A stretch of 64,000 nt of DNA from Ideonella livida (GTDB taxonomy: Bacteria > Pseudomonadota > Gammaproteobacteria > Burkholderiales > Burkholderiaceae_C). Under the pieces are notes generated by a model that saw only the letters and a program-made list of their open reading frames with translations, had not been told where the DNA came from and made no database searches. Location: the NCBI RefSeq assembly GCF_010499455.1, contig NZ_JAAGOH010000001.1, forward strand, positions 186,001-250,000, read 5' to 3'. Positions 700 through 28,065 of this stretch are shown piece after piece. The first letter of the stretch is position 1. Every line of letters begins with the position of its first letter. The translations under genes and the position numbers were made by a program.

Positions 700-1185
700 T
701 CACGCGGCAACTCGCTGCGCCGTGCGTGCCAGCACCCAGGCCCACAGCGAGCCCCCCGCGATCTTTGCCACGAACTGCAGCGCCACGATTTGTGGCATCA
801 ACGCACCAAAGGCCAGCGTCGGGAAGATCAGCGAGTCCACCGCCGCGCCCGCCACGTTTGAGCCGTTGGCCCGGAACAACCACGAACCGCGCAGCCGGGC
901 GAAGGTGGCCCAATCAACCAGCGCCGCAGCCGTGAACGCGGCTGAGCTGGCGACCGCGATCTTCCCGGCCGCCGGATTCAGCGGGTAGGTCAGCGCGCCG
1001 GCCGCAACGATCAGCGCGAACATCTGCCACGCCTTCAGCCGAACGTGCAGCCAGTCGCGCAGCGCCAGGTCCATCCCGATCAGCACGAAGGCATTGATGG
1101 GCGAGACTGCCGGCCCCCAGGTGGCGACGGAAAGGTTCGCCAGCGTCATCGCGGCGGCGTAGATCACGATTGCGAAAGTCAGCAC
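700..1185 (-). CDS. VUT/YhhQ-family preQ0 (queuosine precursor) transporter-like membrane protein
   Basis: This 161-residue polytopic membrane protein is very hydrophobic throughout. It has the segments LTFAIVIYAAAMTLANLSV, a SPINAFVLIGMDLALRDWLH loop and GALMPQIVALQFVAKIAGG, which match the VUT family (PF02592) that includes the E. coli preQ0 transporter YhhQ. I choose a GTG start at 1185 because AGGAGG lies six bases upstream and the family normally begins at this point. That start also overlaps the stop of the preceding gene (1179..1853) and implies translational coupling. The neighbour is a tRNA-guanine-transglycosylase-like protein, so the likely job is to bring in a 7-deazaguanine base for incorporation into phage DNA. 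Substrate specificity is inferred from family and context only. Confidence 0.82.
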   Translation of the reverse strand: MLTFAIVIYAAAMTLANLSVATWGPAVSPINAFVLIGMDLALRDWLHVRLKAWQMFALIVAAGALTYPLNPAAGKIAVASSAAFTAAALVDWATFARLRGSWLFRANGSNVAGAAVDSLIFPTLAFGALMPQIVALQFVAKIAGGSLWAWVLARTAQRVAA

Positions 1186-1853
1186 AGGGCCTCCTGAATT
1201 GGCCGCTCCGTCCACAGAGTCGGCGGGTTGGTTGAATCAATGCGGTGGGCCATACAGTCGGCGCACTTGCCGTAGTCCTTGAAGTTCCGCGCCACGTTCA
1301 CGCTGTCAGCGCTGGCCAGCGGCCACGGGCCAGAAGACTGGCCAAGCATCCGCAGGCCGTGAACCCACGGCAGCGGGCCGCGCTTGGCCAGCGCGTTGAA
1401 TGCCTCGTCCATGCGCCGGCACCATGCGTCGGTGCCGATCTGCCAGAACTGCGCAGTCGATCCAAAGCACACGCGCTCCCACTCGTCGCACAGCTCCAGC
1501 AAGTAGTCAACCGGCAAGCCCATGTGCCACACAGGCAGGCCCAGGCTGCGCCTAAACGGCCATGTCTTGACCATCGCGCGCTGTTGCTCCACGGTGCCGT
1601 CTATTGCGTCGGGCACAACTGCCCAATGTGGATGCGCCAGGTGCGGCTCGATCCATTCGTAGAAGCCGGGCAAGTCGAACGGGATGCCGCGCGTGTGCAC
1701 GCTGAATGCCCCGTTGTCCAGCATCACAGACTGGCCGATTCGCAGGCACACGTCCAAGTCGCGCGGTTCGGCTGCGCTCACGCAAAAGCACTTGCCGCCC
1801 ATCTTCAGGAGCTGTGCTCGTGGCGTCAGTGGTGTGCCGTGATAGTGGATCAT
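1179..1853 (-). CDS. TGT-like / DpdA-like 7-deazaguanine base-exchange enzyme
   Basis: This 224-residue protein appears to have a TIM-barrel architecture. A VMLDNGAFS motif lies near residues 43 to 51 and resembles the DSGGFQ active-site segment of tRNA-guanine transglycosylases. A later HGLRMLG plus SADSVNVARN pair resembles the final barrel strands of DpdA-type enzymes. The segment KCADCMAH near the C terminus could bind metal. ATG at 1853 is chosen because the conserved-looking start MIHYHGTPLTPR begins there, but a TTG at 1889 overlapping the upstream stop is possible. DpdA proteins exchange guanine in DNA for preQ0-type bases, and the partner transporter gene follows directly. Enzyme class is well supported by motifs only; activity on DNA rather than tRNA is inferred from the phage context. 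Confidence 0.65.
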   Translation of the reverse strand: MIHYHGTPLTPRAQLLKMGGKCFCVSAAEPRDLDVCLRIGQSVMLDNGAFSVHTRGIPFDLPGFYEWIEPHLAHPHWAVVPDAIDGTVEQQRAMVKTWPFRRSLGLPVWHMGLPVDYLLELCDEWERVCFGSTAQFWQIGTDAWCRRMDEAFNALAKRGPLPWVHGLRMLGQSSGPWPLASADSVNVARNFKDYGKCADCMAHRIDSTNPPTLWTERPIQEALC

Positions 1854-1885: not shown

Positions 1886-2560
1886 TCAAACGGACGGCCC
1901 TGGTGGGCCGCCGTTTAGCTTTGCGATAGCCGATCCCCCGGGGGTTGCGGCCGGCTGCGCGCCAGTCGTCGCCTCACCACGCAGCGCCAGGAACATCGCA
2001 TAGGCCGCAACGTCCAGCGGATCGCCCTTCGCCGCGTGCTCATGCAACTGGCGGTTGATGTCAGCGGCGGGCCACGCCGGATCGTCCCAGCCGCTTCGGC
2101 CCTTGGCGCGGGCCTTGGCCAGTTTGGCCTTGAGCATCCCGGCGAAGCGGTCCACGGCCAAATTGTCGGGATGCGGAGCCGGAGAGCTGACACCGAGCGC
2201 AGCGTCAATGGCAACGTCCAGTTCTTCGGGAAAAGGTGCTGACGCGCGCCCGTTACCCTCGCCAACAAGGATGGACGAGAAGCCGCCAAGATCGAACTCT
2301 TCATCCTCGGCTCGACTGGCAGTCTGGTTTTGACGGATGAACAAATACCGCCGCGCATTGGCCTTGAGGTCAAGGCAGTAGCCCCGATGCTGGCAGCCGT
2401 TGAACGGGCTTGCGATGTTGTCGTCACCGGGCCAGCGCTCATCTTGCTTCACCACCGGCTGCGCAGCCAGGGATACCAAAGCCGCGTACCACCCCCGCTT
2501 CATGTCGCCCACACAGCCCGCCGGCTGGGTCTCTCTCAGCCAATCGTCAAACGTCATCAT
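1886..2560 (-). CDS. Phage protein of unknown function with helical C-terminal domain, 224 aa
   Basis: The N-terminal part (MMTFDDWLRETQPAG..., residues 1 to about 65) has the look of a small phage-specific domain with a lysine- and tryptophan-containing helix. The C-terminal part (about residues 140 to 195, VDRFAGMLKAKLAKARAKGR then GWDDPAWPAADINRQLHEH) is a type of segment I have seen in many phage proteins of unknown role, ending in a GDPLDVAAYAMFLALRGE helix. The tail is proline-, glycine- and alanine-rich. The ATG at 2560 overlaps the stop of the upstream small gene as ATGA and is preferred to GTG at 2566. No catalytic motif is visible. Confidence 0.7.
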   Translation of the reverse strand: MMTFDDWLRETQPAGCVGDMKRGWYAALVSLAAQPVVKQDERWPGDDNIASPFNGCQHRGYCLDLKANARRYLFIRQNQTASRAEDEEFDLGGFSSILVGEGNGRASAPFPEELDVAIDAALGVSSPAPHPDNLAVDRFAGMLKAKLAKARAKGRSGWDDPAWPAADINRQLHEHAAKGDPLDVAAYAMFLALRGEATTGAQPAATPGGSAIAKLNGGPPGPSV

Positions 2561-2658
2561 TGACACCCCACCAGTAGCCCCACGGCCGCGCAGACGGCCA
2601 CCAGGGCGAACATGTACAGAGCCGCGGCGCCGCGGTTGGCGGCGTCTTGCGCAGTCAC
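2557..2658 (-). CDS. Small membrane protein, 33 aa
   Basis: This very short reading frame starts at a GTG that overlaps the stop of the preceding gene as GTGA and ends with a TGA that overlaps the next ATG as ATGA. The peptide carries one hydrophobic segment, MFALVAVCAAVGLLVGC, at its C terminus. The last-but-one residue is cysteine, but the sequence is not a lipoprotein box at an N terminus. The double coupling to neighbours, the pattern used throughout this operon, is the main support. Function is unknown. Confidence 0.5.
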   Translation of the reverse strand: MTAQDAANRGAAALYMFALVAVCAAVGLLVGCQ

Positions 2659-3003: not shown

Positions 3004-3552
3004 TCAGAGGGCGCTCGACGTGTCATCCAGGCTCGCAGACTCCCGGGCCACTCTTGCCGCGGTCGCAAAGCCAATCTCCAGGGCCTCACGCTGGCTCAGG
3101 AACGCAAGGGACTGGTCATAGACCGCAAGTAGGTCCTCCAGCGCCTCAAGGCCGCAGGAGTCGAACGTCAAGCCTCCACCAGTTCGGCACGACTCCGACG
3201 CCAGCGCAAGGCAGCGAAAGGCGCGAGTCATGTGCTCGTCCGTCTCTGCCCGCTGGAGATTCCCGGCCTGTTCCATGGTGCGGATGTGCTGCACCAGGTC
3301 AGCCAAAACACGCCAGTCTTCCACCGCGGCGCACCCCGCCCGGGCTCGGGCGAGACTTGCTGCCATGACCCCGACCACCTCCAGGCGCTTGCTATCAGGC
3401 ACCAACTCATCGTCCGGGGACTGCTCCAAGAGCTTCGTCCGGACTGATTCAATCCGCGCCTTTGCGTTCATCGCCGTCGCCTGAGCCACTAGGCGCTGCA
3501 GGGGGCTCGGCTTGCTCGGCACAAACGGCCGTCGTGCGCGCTTCGCCATCAA
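3004..3552 (-). CDS. Phage protein of unknown function, 182 aa
   Basis: This is a mostly alpha-helical protein with a basic N terminus (KRARRPFVPSKPSPLQRLV) followed by amphipathic helices and several alanine-rich stretches. It has no membrane segment and no recognisable catalytic motif. It overlaps the end of the terminase small subunit gene as ATGA and is probably translated together with it. The position next to TerS makes a role in packaging or head assembly possible, but nothing in the sequence shows it. Confidence 0.65.
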   Translation of the reverse strand: MMAKRARRPFVPSKPSPLQRLVAQATAMNAKARIESVRTKLLEQSPDDELVPDSKRLEVVGVMAASLARARAGCAAVEDWRVLADLVQHIRTMEQAGNLQRAETDEHMTRAFRCLALASESCRTGGGLTFDSCGLEALEDLLAVYDQSLAFLSQREALEIGFATAARVARESASLDDTSSAL

Positions 3553-4553
3553 TCGCCATCCATCCCGGACGCCGCGCGACGAGACCGAACCTGTTCGGCG
3601 GTCTCTCTGGACTTGGCCATTGCGGCGCCGAAGGTGGCCCCCAACGCTGCAGCAGAGGCCACATCAGTGGCATCAGGTTCTTGGTCCCGATCCTTGAACG
3701 CGCCGATGATCCGACCCATGTTGGCCCAGTGGGCATCTTGATCTGCGGTCTTCATCTCCAGCCCATCTTTACCGACACGCAGCCCACGGAAGAGCTTACG
3801 GGCCGACCCTTTGAGCGCCCGGGTATCAGCAAAGAACGGCTGCACCTCCCCTTCCCCTCGGCACTCCAGACACTCCGGATTCGGGTCCTGCTTGGGGTTG
3901 TACCAAGCGACCGGCTCCTCAAACTCCGGCATCACATCCTTGCCGGACTTGGCCAGCAGTTCAGCCCGCCGGGCCTCATGCTCCTGCCGGGCCGCCGTGA
4001 CCTCGCTGGGCTTCATCAGCGGCTTGGTAGGGTCCGGCGAATGGCAGTAGCGACAGCAGACCCGCCGCATTTGCATCAACTCCTGGGGGTCCGCCGTAGC
4101 CATCGCCATGGTTTCCCGGGCGTACTCTTCAATCGAAATCCCCAAATGCTTGGCCAGGGCCGCCTCGTGGGCCTGGATTACCGCCTTGACCTTAGGGTCC
4201 GATAGCAAGCGGAATGCGGTGACGCTGGCCCCATTCGGACTGAACCCGGCCTTGATCGCGGACTGCAGGCCATTGCGGTCGACGAGGTAGTGAAGGATGA
4301 AGGTTCTCCAGCGGGCGAACTTCGATCCGGACAGGGCAGCATCCCATCCGGGCTCAAGCCCGACAGGAAGCCTTTCCCCGCTCGCGTCAATGGCGGAAGG
4401 CAGTTCGACCGATGGGGGCTTGCGCAAAGGCTTTCGCTGTTTCTTGCCTTTGGTCTTGCTCGGTGGCTTGTCGGTAGGTTTGGATTTGGTCTTGGGCGAT
4501 GGCTTGTCGAAAGGCTTGGAGGAAGCCTTGTCGGTTGGCTTACTTGCGCTCAT
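3549..4553 (-). CDS. Terminase small subunit (TerS)
   Basis: The first 50 residues are an unusual lysine-, proline- and serine-rich tract with a repeated KPTDKPSPKTKSKP pattern. Residues about 75 to 135 (KFARWRTFILHYLVDRNGLQ, then AIKAGFSPNGASVTAFRLLS) match the helix-turn-helix DNA-binding domain of terminase small subunits (Terminase_2 type). A pair of cysteine motifs follows: CCRYCHS near residue 167 and ECLECRGEGE near residue 230, which could form a zinc site. TerS recognises the phage pac or cos site and recruits the large subunit, which must be encoded outside the window. The gene overlaps both neighbours by ATGA. The lysine-rich leader may add non-specific DNA affinity. Confidence 0.82.
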   Translation of the reverse strand: MSASKPTDKASSKPFDKPSPKTKSKPTDKPPSKTKGKKQRKPLRKPPSVELPSAIDASGERLPVGLEPGWDAALSGSKFARWRTFILHYLVDRNGLQSAIKAGFSPNGASVTAFRLLSDPKVKAVIQAHEAALAKHLGISIEEYARETMAMATADPQELMQMRRVCCRYCHSPDPTKPLMKPSEVTAARQEHEARRAELLAKSGKDVMPEFEEPVAWYNPKQDPNPECLECRGEGEVQPFFADTRALKGSARKLFRGLRVGKDGLEMKTADQDAHWANMGRIIGAFKDRDQEPDATDVASAAALGATFGAAMAKSRETAEQVRSRRAASGMDGD

Positions 4554-21062: not shown

Positions 21063-21820
21063 CTGACGCCACCAAGACCCTGGCCCAAGCCGCCCAGGCG
21101 GTGCTCGAGCGTTGGGATTCGCCGCAGTGGAAGTGGCTGAAGGAAGGGCCGACTGCCGACCTCATGCACGACATGCGCCGGGCCCTGGCCGCGCAGGAAG
21201 GAGCCAAGCCGGTGGCCGTTTGGGAATGCAAGGCCGGCGGGCTCAGGCCGTTGACGCAGACGCAGTACGAAAAGCAACCCGGCAACATCAAGAGGCATTA
21301 CACGCGGATCGCCACGCATCCGGTGGCGGTGCCTGCCGACCCGCTGGACTGGCCGCTCCCGTGCGACGTGACAGTCGGGCATGTCACGATCAAACGCGGC
21401 TGCGATCTGCGGGCGTTGGTTTCCCGCATGCAGGTGCTCTATGACATGGTGGCGGCGCCTTTCGTCACGCGAGGTGAAGCCGCATGGGATGCGTTGACTG
21501 AGCAGTTCGTGGACGAGTTCCTTGAGGGCTACGAGCGCTTGGGCAACGACGAAGAAGGTCGTGACGCGCTTCATGTCCCGAGCGAAGCCGAGCGATTCGT
21601 CATCAAGGACGCGATCATGGGCCTGTTGGCGGAAGCTGATGGTGTCGCGCGCCGGCTCGCCGCCGCCCCTGCCGCGCCGGCCCAGGCGCAAGCCGAGCGC
21701 TTGGACCTGGATCACCTGATTTCGGAGTGTGTCCCGGGCGGGTCGATCTGCGACCCGCAGCATGTGGCGGACGCCATTCGGGCCTACTTCGATTCCCGGC
21801 GTGCCGCGCCCGCCGCCTGA
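21059..21820 (+). CDS. Phage protein of unknown function, 253 aa
   Basis: The N-terminal half has an alanine-rich helical start (TLAQAAQAVLERWDSPQWKW) typical of phage proteins that carry small C-terminal domains. The middle has DVTVGHVTIKRGCDLRALVS and a helix with ALTEQFVDEFLEGYERLGND. The C-terminal tail includes LISECVPGGSICDPQHVADA. No catalytic residues are recognisable. It overlaps the previous gene and precedes the methyltransferase by 28 bases. Confidence 0.6.
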   Translation: MTDATKTLAQAAQAVLERWDSPQWKWLKEGPTADLMHDMRRALAAQEGAKPVAVWECKAGGLRPLTQTQYEKQPGNIKRHYTRIATHPVAVPADPLDWPLPCDVTVGHVTIKRGCDLRALVSRMQVLYDMVAAPFVTRGEAAWDALTEQFVDEFLEGYERLGNDEEGRDALHVPSEAERFVIKDAIMGLLAEADGVARRLAAAPAAPAQAQAERLDLDHLISECVPGGSICDPQHVADAIRAYFDSRRAAPAA

Positions 21821-21848
21821 AGGCAGCGCGACCGAAAGAGAAATCACC

Positions 21849-23621
21849 ATGAACCGCGTAGACGTTGAAATCCGCCACTTCCATCTCTTCTCTGGCATCG
21901 GCATGGGCGCCAAGGGGTTCAACCGTGGCAGTGCCCGTGTTGGCAACCTGACCGCAAAGTTCCGGTGCCTTGGCGGCATCGATGTGGACCCCGCCGCCGT
22001 CCGTGACTTTGGCCGCGTGGCCGGCGTCCCGGGCACTGTCATGGACCTTTTCGACCGGGAGCAGTACCGCGCTTTCCACGGCGAGGAGCCGCCGGCAGAC
22101 TGGCGCGAAGCCACCCCACAGGACATTCACCGGGCCGCGGGCAATGAGCGGCCCCATATCGTGTTCCTCTCTGCCCCGTGCAAGGGCTTCAGTGGCTTGC
22201 TGAGCGAGAGCAAGAGCAAGACTGACAAGTACCAGGCGCTGAACCGCCTCACGCTGCGCGGCGTGTGGCTGATGCTGGAGGCCTGGCAGCAAGACCCGCC
22301 GGAACTGGTGCTGTTCGAGAACGTGCCCCGCCTGGCAACCCGTGGCCGGGCCCTGCTGGACCAGATCACCGCCATGCTGCGCTCCTACGGCTACGCAACG
22401 GCCGAGACCACACACGACTGCGGCGAGCTGGGCGGCCTGGCCCAGAGCCGCAAGCGCTTCTTGCTGGTGGCTCGCCACCTGGAGAAGGTGCCCCCCCTGC
22501 TCTACCAACCGCAGACCCGGCCGCTGCGTGCTGTGGGCGATGTGCTGGGGCGGATGCCCCTTCCCGGAGACCTGCGCGCTGGCCCGATGCACCGCGTCCC
22601 CTCATTGCAGTGGAAGACCTGGGTTCGTCTTGCCTTTGTCGAGGCCGGCAGCGACTGGCGCAGCCTCAACCGTCTGGCCGTCGCTGATGGCGTGCTGAGC
22701 GATTACCTGATCGTCCCTGGTCACCACAACGGCCAGATTGGCGTGATGGCGCATGACCCGAGCGGGACTTTCGCTGACGTGGAGGCCGGCTCGTTTTCCG
22801 TGGCAGACCCGCGGGCCCGCCGGGGAGCAGCCCAGTACCAGCAGTACGGCGTCCGCCGCTGGAGCGACACCAGCGGCGCCGTGACAGGCCAATCTGCGCC
22901 GGGCGGTGGCTCTCACTCTGTCGCTGATCCGCGTTGCCCGAACGTGCTGCACAACAACGCATTCCGCGTCGTGCGGTACAGCGACCACGCCCAAGCCGTC
23001 ACGGGCGGCACAGGCTCAGTTGGCGGCTGCGTTGCCGACCCGCGGCGCAGCGGCCCGGCATTCGGCAAGTACGCCGTGGCCCCCTGGGAGTCCGCCGCAG
23101 GGACGGTGATTGCAGGCAGCACGACGGGACAGGGCGCATATGCCGTGGCCGACCCCCGAAGCGGCATGGCAGCCGACCGGGAGGCCTATCAGTCCGGCGG
23201 GCACTACGGCGTGCTGCGCTGGGATGAGCCGAGCGGAGCAGTCAGTGCCGCCGCCTGCCACGACAACGGGCGCTGGAGCGTTGCGGACCACCGACTGCCG
23301 GTGTGCACCGAACACCTGGCCGCCGTCATCCTGTCTGAGGACGCCACCTGGCACCGGCCGTTCACCACTCTGGAGCTTGCCGCTCTTCAAAGTCTGGTCG
23401 ATCCGGAGGAACAGATCGAACTGGACGGGCTGAGCGATCAAGCATGGCGTGAGCGCATTGGCAACGGCGTCCCGCCGGCAGCAGCCGAGGCCATCGCCAG
23501 CGAGATGGGCCGCACCCTGCTGCTGGCCTGGAGCGGGGAGACGTTCGCCCTGTCCATGGCTCCCGTGTGGGTCCGCCCCACGGTTGCAGCACTGATGGTC
23601 GCCCAAGGAAACATCGCCTGA
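21849..23621 (+). CDS. C5 cytosine DNA methyltransferase with repeat-built target region
   Basis: The 590-residue protein has all catalytic motifs of C5 methyltransferases: motif I HLFSGIGMGAKGF (12 to 24), motif IV SAPCKGFS (108 to 115, catalytic Cys111), motif VI FENV (156 to 159), motif VIII QSRKRF (199 to 204) and motif X IGNGVPPAAAEA (537 to 548). Between VIII and X, residues 316 to 483 are made of modules beginning VADPR at 318, 358, 395 and 433, and VADHR at 478. The spacing is 37 to 45 residues, and each module contains a Y-x-V...W/Y...AV/TV pattern. This region sits where the target-recognition domain normally lies. The enzyme probably methylates phage DNA against host restriction; the target sequence is unknown. 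Confidence 0.9.
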   Translation: MNRVDVEIRHFHLFSGIGMGAKGFNRGSARVGNLTAKFRCLGGIDVDPAAVRDFGRVAGVPGTVMDLFDREQYRAFHGEEPPADWREATPQDIHRAAGNERPHIVFLSAPCKGFSGLLSESKSKTDKYQALNRLTLRGVWLMLEAWQQDPPELVLFENVPRLATRGRALLDQITAMLRSYGYATAETTHDCGELGGLAQSRKRFLLVARHLEKVPPLLYQPQTRPLRAVGDVLGRMPLPGDLRAGPMHRVPSLQWKTWVRLAFVEAGSDWRSLNRLAVADGVLSDYLIVPGHHNGQIGVMAHDPSGTFADVEAGSFSVADPRARRGAAQYQQYGVRRWSDTSGAVTGQSAPGGGSHSVADPRCPNVLHNNAFRVVRYSDHAQAVTGGTGSVGGCVADPRRSGPAFGKYAVAPWESAAGTVIAGSTTGQGAYAVADPRSGMAADREAYQSGGHYGVLRWDEPSGAVSAAACHDNGRWSVADHRLPVCTEHLAAVILSEDATWHRPFTTLELAALQSLVDPEEQIELDGLSDQAWRERIGNGVPPAAAEAIASEMGRTLLLAWSGETFALSMAPVWVRPTVAALMVAQGNIA

Positions 23622-26694: not shown

Positions 26695-27825
26695 TCACCA
26701 CAACTGCGCTGCCAAGTCCGAACCCCGCAAGTTGGCGTATCGCATCATCATCCGATGCGACTTGTGCCCGGTGATCTTCATGATCTGCGCTTCGGACAGG
26801 CGGGTGCGCTCGAACAAGCGCGACGTTGCTTCGTGCCGCAAGTCGTGGAACCGAAGGCCTTTGGCGCCGGCCTGGTTGAACACCCCAGCGAAGCGCTTGG
26901 ACAGGTAGTCCGACACCGCGACCAGGTGCCGTTTGTCATGGGTTCCGTCCCACCACGGGAACAGGATGTCGGGAGGTTGATCCGGGTCTGGGGTCCGCGC
27001 CTCGGTGTAGATCTCGAGTTCTGCCAGCGCAACAGATGACAGCGGGACCTGTCGCTTATCCCCGTTCTTGGTCCGGTCCAGGAACACCGTCCGCCGGGCC
27101 TTGTCGATCTGGGGGAGCGTCAGGGTGTACATCTCACGCAGGCGCATTGCTGACTCGACGGCCAGCACATACAAGAACCGATGGGCGGCTGGATGCTCCA
27201 TCGCCAGGGGCCTGTGGGACCTATGCAGCACCCCGGAGGCTATGACCGCCAGGATGGCCTCGTGCTCGCCAGGCTCCAGCCGGCGGTCCCGCTCAACGTC
27301 TTCCCGCTTCACCCCGCCTGATGCCTGCACGTCCGCCACGCTGTACTGGGCGTAGCCGTCCGGCAACGTCCGCAGCGGGTGATCTGGCAAAGTCAGGAAC
27401 CCTTTGCGCATGCCCCAGTCTGTGCACCGGGCCACAGCACCAACGCGGGCCCGAATGGACGCAGGCGCAAGCGCCTCCAAGCGCTTCATGTCAGCAATCC
27501 ACGCGTCCACCCATTGCGCGTTGATGGTCCTCAGCGGGGTATCACCTCTGCTCCGGAGGACGGCGGACAAGGCCTGCTGGTCTTTGTCACTGGGGTGCGC
27601 CTGTCGCTCGTACTCGCTCACCAGGTCGCGCAGCACCATCACGGACACCGGCCGCTCAAGATCTGTCGGGACTATCCCTCGGTCTAGCAGCGCATCAAGC
27701 TTGGCCGCATACGCGTCCCCCTCCTCTTCGGAGTCGAACGTCAGGTAGAGCGGCCGGTCCAGCACCCCAGAGCGCTTGAAGACGTATTGCCACTTTCCGT
27801 TTGGGGTCTTTTTCTTTCCTGCCAT
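26695..27825 (-). CDS. int: Tyrosine-type phage integrase
   Basis: The 376-residue protein begins with an arm/SAM-like N-terminal part (MAGKKKTPNGKWQYVFKRSG) and a core-binding domain. The catalytic domain (about residues 190 to 376) has VESAMRLREMYTLTL for the first arginine, RFHDLRHEATSRLFE for the H-x-x-R box, ITGHKSHRMMMRY for the H and the nucleophile Tyr363. It catalyses integration and excision at attP/attB. The gene lies at the prophage edge, reading away from the tRNA-Val whose 3' end it faces. An inverted repeat lies directly upstream of its start. Confidence 0.97.
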   Translation of the reverse strand: MAGKKKTPNGKWQYVFKRSGVLDRPLYLTFDSEEEGDAYAAKLDALLDRGIVPTDLERPVSVMVLRDLVSEYERQAHPSDKDQQALSAVLRSRGDTPLRTINAQWVDAWIADMKRLEALAPASIRARVGAVARCTDWGMRKGFLTLPDHPLRTLPDGYAQYSVADVQASGGVKREDVERDRRLEPGEHEAILAVIASGVLHRSHRPLAMEHPAAHRFLYVLAVESAMRLREMYTLTLPQIDKARRTVFLDRTKNGDKRQVPLSSVALAELEIYTEARTPDPDQPPDILFPWWDGTHDKRHLVAVSDYLSKRFAGVFNQAGAKGLRFHDLRHEATSRLFERTRLSEAQIMKITGHKSHRMMMRYANLRGSDLAAQLW

Positions 27826-27960: not shown

Positions 27961-28010
27961 GATTTCATTGTATTTTTTCTGGGAGACGGTGGTGGGTGCT
28001 AACGGGCTCG
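27960..28010. other. Probable prophage attachment region at the tRNA-Val 3' end
   Basis: The integrase gene lies directly beside the 3' end of a tRNA gene, the classic arrangement for tyrosine-integrase prophages. In such cases the core identity covers the 3' part of the tRNA, so the gene remains complete after insertion. The exact core cannot be set, because the second copy is not in the window. Confidence 0.45.
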
Positions 28011-28065
28011 AACCGCTGACCTACGCCTTGTAAGGGCGCCGCTCTACCAACTGAGCTAAGCACCC
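27990..28065 (-). tRNA. tRNA-Val (anticodon TAC)
   Basis: The minus strand reads GGGTGCTTAGCTCAGTTGGT at the 5' end. The anticodon arm is GCGCC-CTTACAA-GGCGT with anticodon TAC, the T arm contains GGTTCGAGCC, the acceptor 3' strand is AGCACCC-A, and CCA is encoded. The full length is 76 bases and all arms pair. The gene lies between hup and the prophage and is most likely the phage attachment site. Confidence 0.97.

Follow-up and report, generated by a model that had tools for sequence, protein, structure and literature searches.

An overlapping transporter gene and small DpdA-type enzyme gene in an Ideonella livida prophage: a candidate salvage route for 7-deazaguanine DNA modification

A prophage of Ideonella livida encodes a VUT/YhhQ-type membrane transporter and, in the gene it overlaps, a relative of tRNA-guanine transglycosylases (TGT), which raises the question of what this combination does for a phage. 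The window analysed here is a stretch of 64,000 nucleotides. A first-pass annotation, made from the sequence alone, had proposed that the two proteins import a 7-deazaguanine precursor and exchange it into phage DNA as protection from restriction, and had marked the minimal two-gene form in an integrated betaproteobacterial prophage as worth confirming. The open reading frame list and the sequence place both genes where that annotation had put them, on the minus strand. The enzyme gene occupies 1179..1853 (224 aa); the listed frame runs over 1179-1889 from a TTG, and relatives start at the residue encoded by the ATG at 1853. The transporter gene occupies 700..1185 (161 aa), within a listed frame of 700-1215. 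Its probable start, judged from the sequence, is the GTG at 1185, four bases past an AGGAGG ribosome-binding site (1190..1195, minus strand) that lies within the 3' end of the enzyme gene. This start overlaps the enzyme stop by seven bases (GTGCTGA, 1179..1185, minus strand), in line with the proposal that the transporter is translated directly after the enzyme.

The pair sits between the terminase small-subunit gene (3549..4553, minus strand; Pfam PF03592, PHROG 51) and the large-subunit gene terL (PHROG 2), located just left of the window (L002:17320-18918). Upstream, a gene read in the same direction, its function unknown (PHROG 8298; 1886..2566, minus strand), overlaps the longest form of the enzyme frame. 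The prophage context comprises both terminase genes, tail genes and an integrase (PHROG 1; 26695..27825, minus strand) at the right end, adjoining a tRNA-Val detected by ARAGORN (27990-28065). IMG/VR contains the same prophage as a record of 77,934 bases, whose right end falls at window position 27825 by offset arithmetic. The nearest match in named genomes was from a Betaproteobacteria MAG (67% identical). Elsewhere in this prophage, a 630-aa DNA methyltransferase-like protein (PHROG 116; window 21729-23621, plus strand) might modify the DNA as well, as a second layer.

The product of 1179-1853 is a DpdA-type base-exchange enzyme. It matched PHROG 887, named 'queuine tRNA-ribosyltransferase' (E 1.6e-41), and no Pfam family: PF01702 (TGT) gave no match, nor did PF23859, the Pfam DpdA family, at E values up to 1. 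The family listings of the 85 sequences in the alignment behind our enzyme profile (A1) did not include PF23859 either; the DpdA of phage 7-11 (L311, NC_015938) is one of these sequences. Searched against phage genomes, the profile gave a single match in Escherichia phage 9g, its DpdA (E 8.5e-15), a single match in Pantoea phage Vid5, again the DpdA (E 1.6e-13), a match in MED16 (E 1.0e-80) and nothing at E 0.001 in Vibrio phage nt-1, which encodes DpdA2. Alignment of the profile with 9g DpdA by hhalign (probability 96.9, E 1.3e-10, 149 columns) lined up the LDSGAF, HAGEP, VHGFG and SCDSS motifs, and BLASTP of the window enzyme against the same protein, one comparison, gave 23% identity over 101 residues (E 3e-7). 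A direct sequence link to TGT was rejected, hhalign of the profile against E. coli TGT and against a 21-row TGT alignment giving a probability of 0.2; the tie to TGT runs via 9g DpdA and via the fold. Searches of PDB sequences with the A1 profile and with the transporter profile (A2) returned nothing relevant, and neither window protein matched a PADLOC model. Both genes are under purifying selection, with dN/dS of 0.03-0.21 in seven of eight pairs for the enzyme (the eighth saturated) and 0.14-0.30 in six of eight for the transporter (the other two saturated).

The AlphaFold model of the enzyme (pLDDT 95.6) is an eight-strand barrel. Its top VIA-align rows were chains of TGT fold (Z 13.7-14.9, about 201-212 residues), with Cap10, archaeal TGT and bacterial TGT tied and Cap10-CdnD (9ntn, Z 14.9) first. 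Foldseek against the PDB placed ribulose-phosphate epimerases on top (E 3.6e-3, TM about 0.5), and TGT was not among the 50 matches listed. The predicted barrel fits the TGT fold and, together with the profile match to 9g DpdA, bears out the description of the protein as TGT/DpdA-like. The DNGAF and SADSVNVARN motifs singled out at first pass are present, and residues D46, D82, H110, G131, D183 and S184 are invariant in all 85 aligned sequences. H165, kept in 84 of the 85, aligns with the histidine at position 196 of 9g DpdA, which PMC6884629 describes as a DpdA trait absent from DpdA2. In the model, strands 3 to 8 or the positions just past them carry D46, D82, H110, G131, H165 and D183, the conserved aspartates falling on the active-site face. 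From motifs and strand order we infer by analogy that D46, D82, H110, G131 and D183 correspond to D89, D143, Q187, G213 and D264 of TGT (E. coli numbering); sequence profiles leave the two families unaligned. In a transglycosylase mechanism, D183 would be the nucleophile and D46 the general acid/base, and the base pocket would contain D82, H110 and G131.

What does the enzyme act on? The TGT fold and the PHROG name would suit an enzyme that modifies host or phage tRNA and alters decoding during infection, and PF02592 is a family of queuosine-precursor transporters, fused with TGT in some bacteria (PMC11130926); the transporter could then feed queuosine precursors to the enzyme or to the host TGT. 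We regard this as quite unlikely, given that the enzyme has 224 aa against 375 in E. coli TGT, that PF01702 is unmatched and that the sequence link leads to the DNA-modifying 9g DpdA. Moreover, the Cys3-His zinc set that is invariant in TGT (C302, C304, C307 and H333) is missing from the conserved columns, no cysteine occurring among those conserved at 90% or more in the 85 sequences. The leading VIA-align row, level with the TGTs, recalls a different target, since Cap10 of CBASS, in which the TGT fold is remodelled to bind a deazaguanylated N-terminus, has a TGT-type barrel like the window enzyme, and protein deazaguanylation exists (PMC11996544): the enzyme might conjugate or recognise 7-deazaguanine on a protein, for example to counter or imitate defence. 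This is very improbable in view of the invariant catalytic aspartates, a sequence similarity to Cap10 that is undetectable and a family profile that resembles no relevant PDB chain; the QueC-family partner of Cap10 (PF06508) is likewise missing from all 50 whole records searched. DNA is the likely target of the DpdA-type enzyme.

The transporter had been called VUT/YhhQ-type at first pass, and a profile search agreed, with a PF02592 score of 43.6 bits (cut-off 27.2; E 5.2e-11, positions 43-140 of 152). It also matched PHROG 4899 (E 2e-34), and hhalign against E. coli YhhQ gave a probability of 91.4 (E 9e-7). By sequence, the product of 700-1185 is assigned to VUT/QPTR (COG1738, PF02592), a family of transporters for preQ0, preQ1 or queuine, as a predicted preQ0-type member. 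Six helices are predicted in its AlphaFold model (pLDDT 92.6), and the first 11 VIA-align rows were ECF S-components or similar subunits (Z 9.5-10.6; next unrelated row, 8.3). For a helical bundle, such matches are no more than suggestive of an S-component-like fold.

If the enzyme needs a 7-deazaguanine base, where would it come from? The first-pass annotation saw no queuosine genes nearby, and this holds as far as we searched: QueD and QueC had no match in the 77,934-base prophage record, and one home-made profile found no QueE in the locus neighbourhood. QueC, QueF and TGT are present in the host genome (a draft of 104 contigs, 99.2% complete), where the sole Vut_1 match is the prophage copy. 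Therefore preQ0 should exist in the cell, with the prophage adding an import route; because the host itself makes preQ0, import is not obviously needed.

We then measured how often enzyme and transporter pair up. With the window transporter as query in IMG/VR, DpdA lay directly upstream on the same strand in all 80 of the best loci of 225 relatives, the window's own prophage among them. With the window enzyme as query, the transporter adjoined in 70 of the best 80 of 382 relatives and was lacking in 10, three of these near a contig end; the 160 loci from the two queries share contigs and are related. The proportion fell elsewhere in the enzyme family. A MED16-clade query gave 5 of 80 loci with the transporter, 60 lacking it and 15 close to a contig end; for the Pam5 enzyme the corresponding counts were 14 of 41, 18 and 9. 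The transporter was present in 3 of 5 loci for the PEAT2 enzyme and in 7 of 23 enzyme loci of named genomes, where 15 lacked it and 1 was close to an end. The enzyme-transporter association is thus clade-dependent. A distant transporter clade, reached with the Pam5 transporter, had an A1-type DpdA within 1.5 kb in 35 of 45 loci, at least five of the 45 being contigs already in other locus sets. Both gene orders occur among these pairs, 29 with the enzyme first and 6 with the transporter first. The two-gene form is therefore not special to this prophage, the pair being widespread in IMG/VR loci.

The remaining ten loci of the Pam5 transporter clade comprise five near a contig end and five without an A1-type DpdA (L391, L356, L357, L370 and L396). 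A PF23859 DpdA lies near the transporter in L391 (hhalign against A1, probability only 1.5), and a PAPS-reductase-like gene (PF01507) in L396. The LHE71 transporter found no relative in IMG/VR (15 stretches matched, none confirmed). The transporter occurred in 21 records of our phage collection; DpdA adjoined in 14 of these, as judged from coordinates, annotation or profile, PEAT2 and Flyfo Tbat1_6 each being counted twice through duplicate records. The other seven, mEp021-like, had no adjoining DpdA, and the A1 profile found none anywhere in the three of them searched (mEp010, mEp021 and MagusPhagus).

In these three phages an overlapping putative DNA methyltransferase follows the transporter (L109:3956-5247, L322:1456-2723 and L323:1465-2729). 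The mEp010 protein gp45 had been guessed to be a DpdA from its place after the VUT gene, and was rejected as such when PHROGs identified it as a DNA methyltransferase (phrog_757).

Part of the transporter-less loci carry QueD or QueE beside the enzyme. In 91 clusters formed at 85% identity, 6 of them near contig ends and set aside, QueD or QueE was found near the enzyme in none of the 46 with the transporter versus 11 of the 39 without it (Fisher p 7.9e-5, for clusters that are related by descent); 28 of the 39 had neither transporter nor QueD/QueE. A set of 50 whole records, selected by length, had QueD in none of the 24 with the transporter (23 called by Pfam, LHE71 by a custom profile) versus 7 of the 26 without it, three of the seven matches falling below the Pfam cut-off. 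For part of the enzyme family, the transporter and genes of preQ0 synthesis thus alternate.

Adjacency might nevertheless reflect shared inheritance within phage lineages, the transporter serving the lysogen, by salvage of queuosine precursors, and not the enzyme. The pair loci come mostly from related freshwater-type contigs, many members of the enzyme family lack the transporter, the transporter of the mEp021 group adjoins a putative methyltransferase, and the host has no other Vut_1, all of which fit such a history. Passive linkage would hardly give both gene orders together with overlapping starts: of 152 enzyme-first loci, 64 have a best-scored transporter start that overlaps the enzyme stop by 4 bases, and 36 have one that overlaps it by 7. 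The states are also scattered over the enzyme tree. A count of label changes forced by its starred branches gives minima of 11 for the enzyme-first order, 10 for the transporter-first order and 6 for QueD/QueE; the changes for the two pair orders argue in the same direction, as do the PF23859 DpdA beside the transporter in L391 and the alternation with QueD/QueE. We consider shared inheritance unlikely. The recurrence of the pair in many phages suggests that some of them import the base rather than make it.

Other genes recur beside these enzymes and transporters. PHROG 15826 proteins, of 'unknown function', adjoin phage VUT genes in three of the loci named above (L356:3381-3992, L357:3355-3987 and L370:2937-3563) and carry the DpdA-like motifs DNGG/DNGC, PD(I/V)VG and VH(V/M)GRVN. 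They are possibly a further base-exchange family; because hhalign against A1 backs the L370 protein (probability 75, E 2.5e-5) and not that of L356 (probability 0.9), we treat the likeness to DpdA as a lead. A PAPS-reductase-like PP-loop gene lies near the enzyme in 39 loci (for example L007, L040, L064, L173 and L299), often within less than 1 kb on the same strand and with or without the transporter, PF01507 matching in L007; it is found within 1.5 kb of the enzyme in 4 of 91 cluster representatives, and its profile had no match near the window pair. In L112 (4705-5001), L281-L290, L301 and L304 the enzyme is directly preceded by a QueD-like protein of no more than about 100 aa, which matches part of PF01242. 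In Pam5 and RHph_X2_30, a small PHROG 9572 frame lies between enzyme and VUT (L114:5687-5947 and L113:4512-4757).

Salvage of preQ0 through a VUT protein for phage DNA modification is not a new idea: it was proposed in 2018 for Vid5, reported to be the first phage carrying a preQ0/preQ1 transporter, its VUT being closest to bacterial ones (PMC6266253). Vid5 shares the transporter superfamily with the window prophage, its 9g-type DpdA is a distant relative of the window enzyme, and according to its authors it also has queD, queE and folE-type genes, none of which was found in the window prophage. In 9g the DpdA has 317 aa and lies inside a full synthesis cluster, whereas the window enzyme, with 224 aa, has in common with it homology, motifs and the histidine at 196. 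Closer kin are the singleton DpdA proteins of phages 7-11 and MED16 (in Hutinet 2019, group 3; in the MED16 paper, cluster DpdA/TGT_1), which belong to the same enzyme family; these phages likewise have no preQ0-synthesis genes found, but lack Vut_1, whereas the window prophage has an overlapping transporter. YhhQ has been noted in HCTV-1 and HCTV-16 (PMC8651126) and, in PMC6884629, in 'some phages', with no correlation drawn. DpdA and VUT genes adjoin or lie within about 0.5 kb in AB3P2, PEAT2, Phleasolo, Phc, LHE71, Pam5, RHph_X2_30 and other named phages, mostly with VUT first, unlike the window, and with small frames between them in Pam5 and RHph_X2_30. Some of these are already annotated as VUT and queuine tRNA-ribosyltransferase; in the literature searched, whose coverage of recent work on these bases was incomplete, we found no functional study of such pairs, nor any paper that describes the minimal DpdA-VUT pair. 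What the present loci add is the close link of small DpdA and VUT in part of one family, in both orders, and its alternation with QueD/QueE.

How much modification should be expected? DNA of phage 7-11 contains 50 dADG per million nucleotides, about 0.02% of G (PMC6884629), and that of MED16 contains 354 per million, about 0.13% of G, which did not noticeably affect the restriction enzymes tried (PMC8306585). Both phages are members of the enzyme family without Vut_1, and these traces could also derive from host DNA or a host enzyme. Because the measured relatives hold only traces of dADG, base exchange by the family is likely, and heavy modification and restriction protection remain unproven. 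Of the reading given at first pass, membership in a preQ0-type transporter family, a DpdA-type enzyme with the TGT barrel and a genomic link between the two are supported; protection from restriction is not borne out by 7-11 and MED16.

We think it probable that the two genes are translationally coupled and form a cassette that supplies a 7-deazaguanine base and inserts it, with DNA the likely target. The VUT protein would import the base, most likely preQ0, raising its level above what the host queuosine pathway leaves free, and the small DpdA-type enzyme would swap guanine in phage DNA for it. The benefit may be evasion of a DNA-recognising defence, perhaps at few sites. Substrate, direction of transport, target and benefit are, like the residue roles drawn from TGT, what we infer.

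More tentatively, with the chances close to even but tilting slightly against, an importer with a minimal base-exchange enzyme may represent a widespread, salvage-type form of phage DNA hypermodification, in which the supply half has repeatedly been swapped between VUT and partial synthesis (QueD/QueE), modification depends on the surrounding preQ0, and phage VUT genes guide to unrecognised base-exchange families, here PHROG 15826. The model predicts that DNA is more modified in phages that have the transporter and are supplied with preQ0, so that phages with the importer should exceed 7-11 or MED16 in modified base, depending on external preQ0. If this is true, phage DNA modification would respond to a metabolite from the community around it, and the neighbours of VUT genes could expose new base-exchange enzymes.
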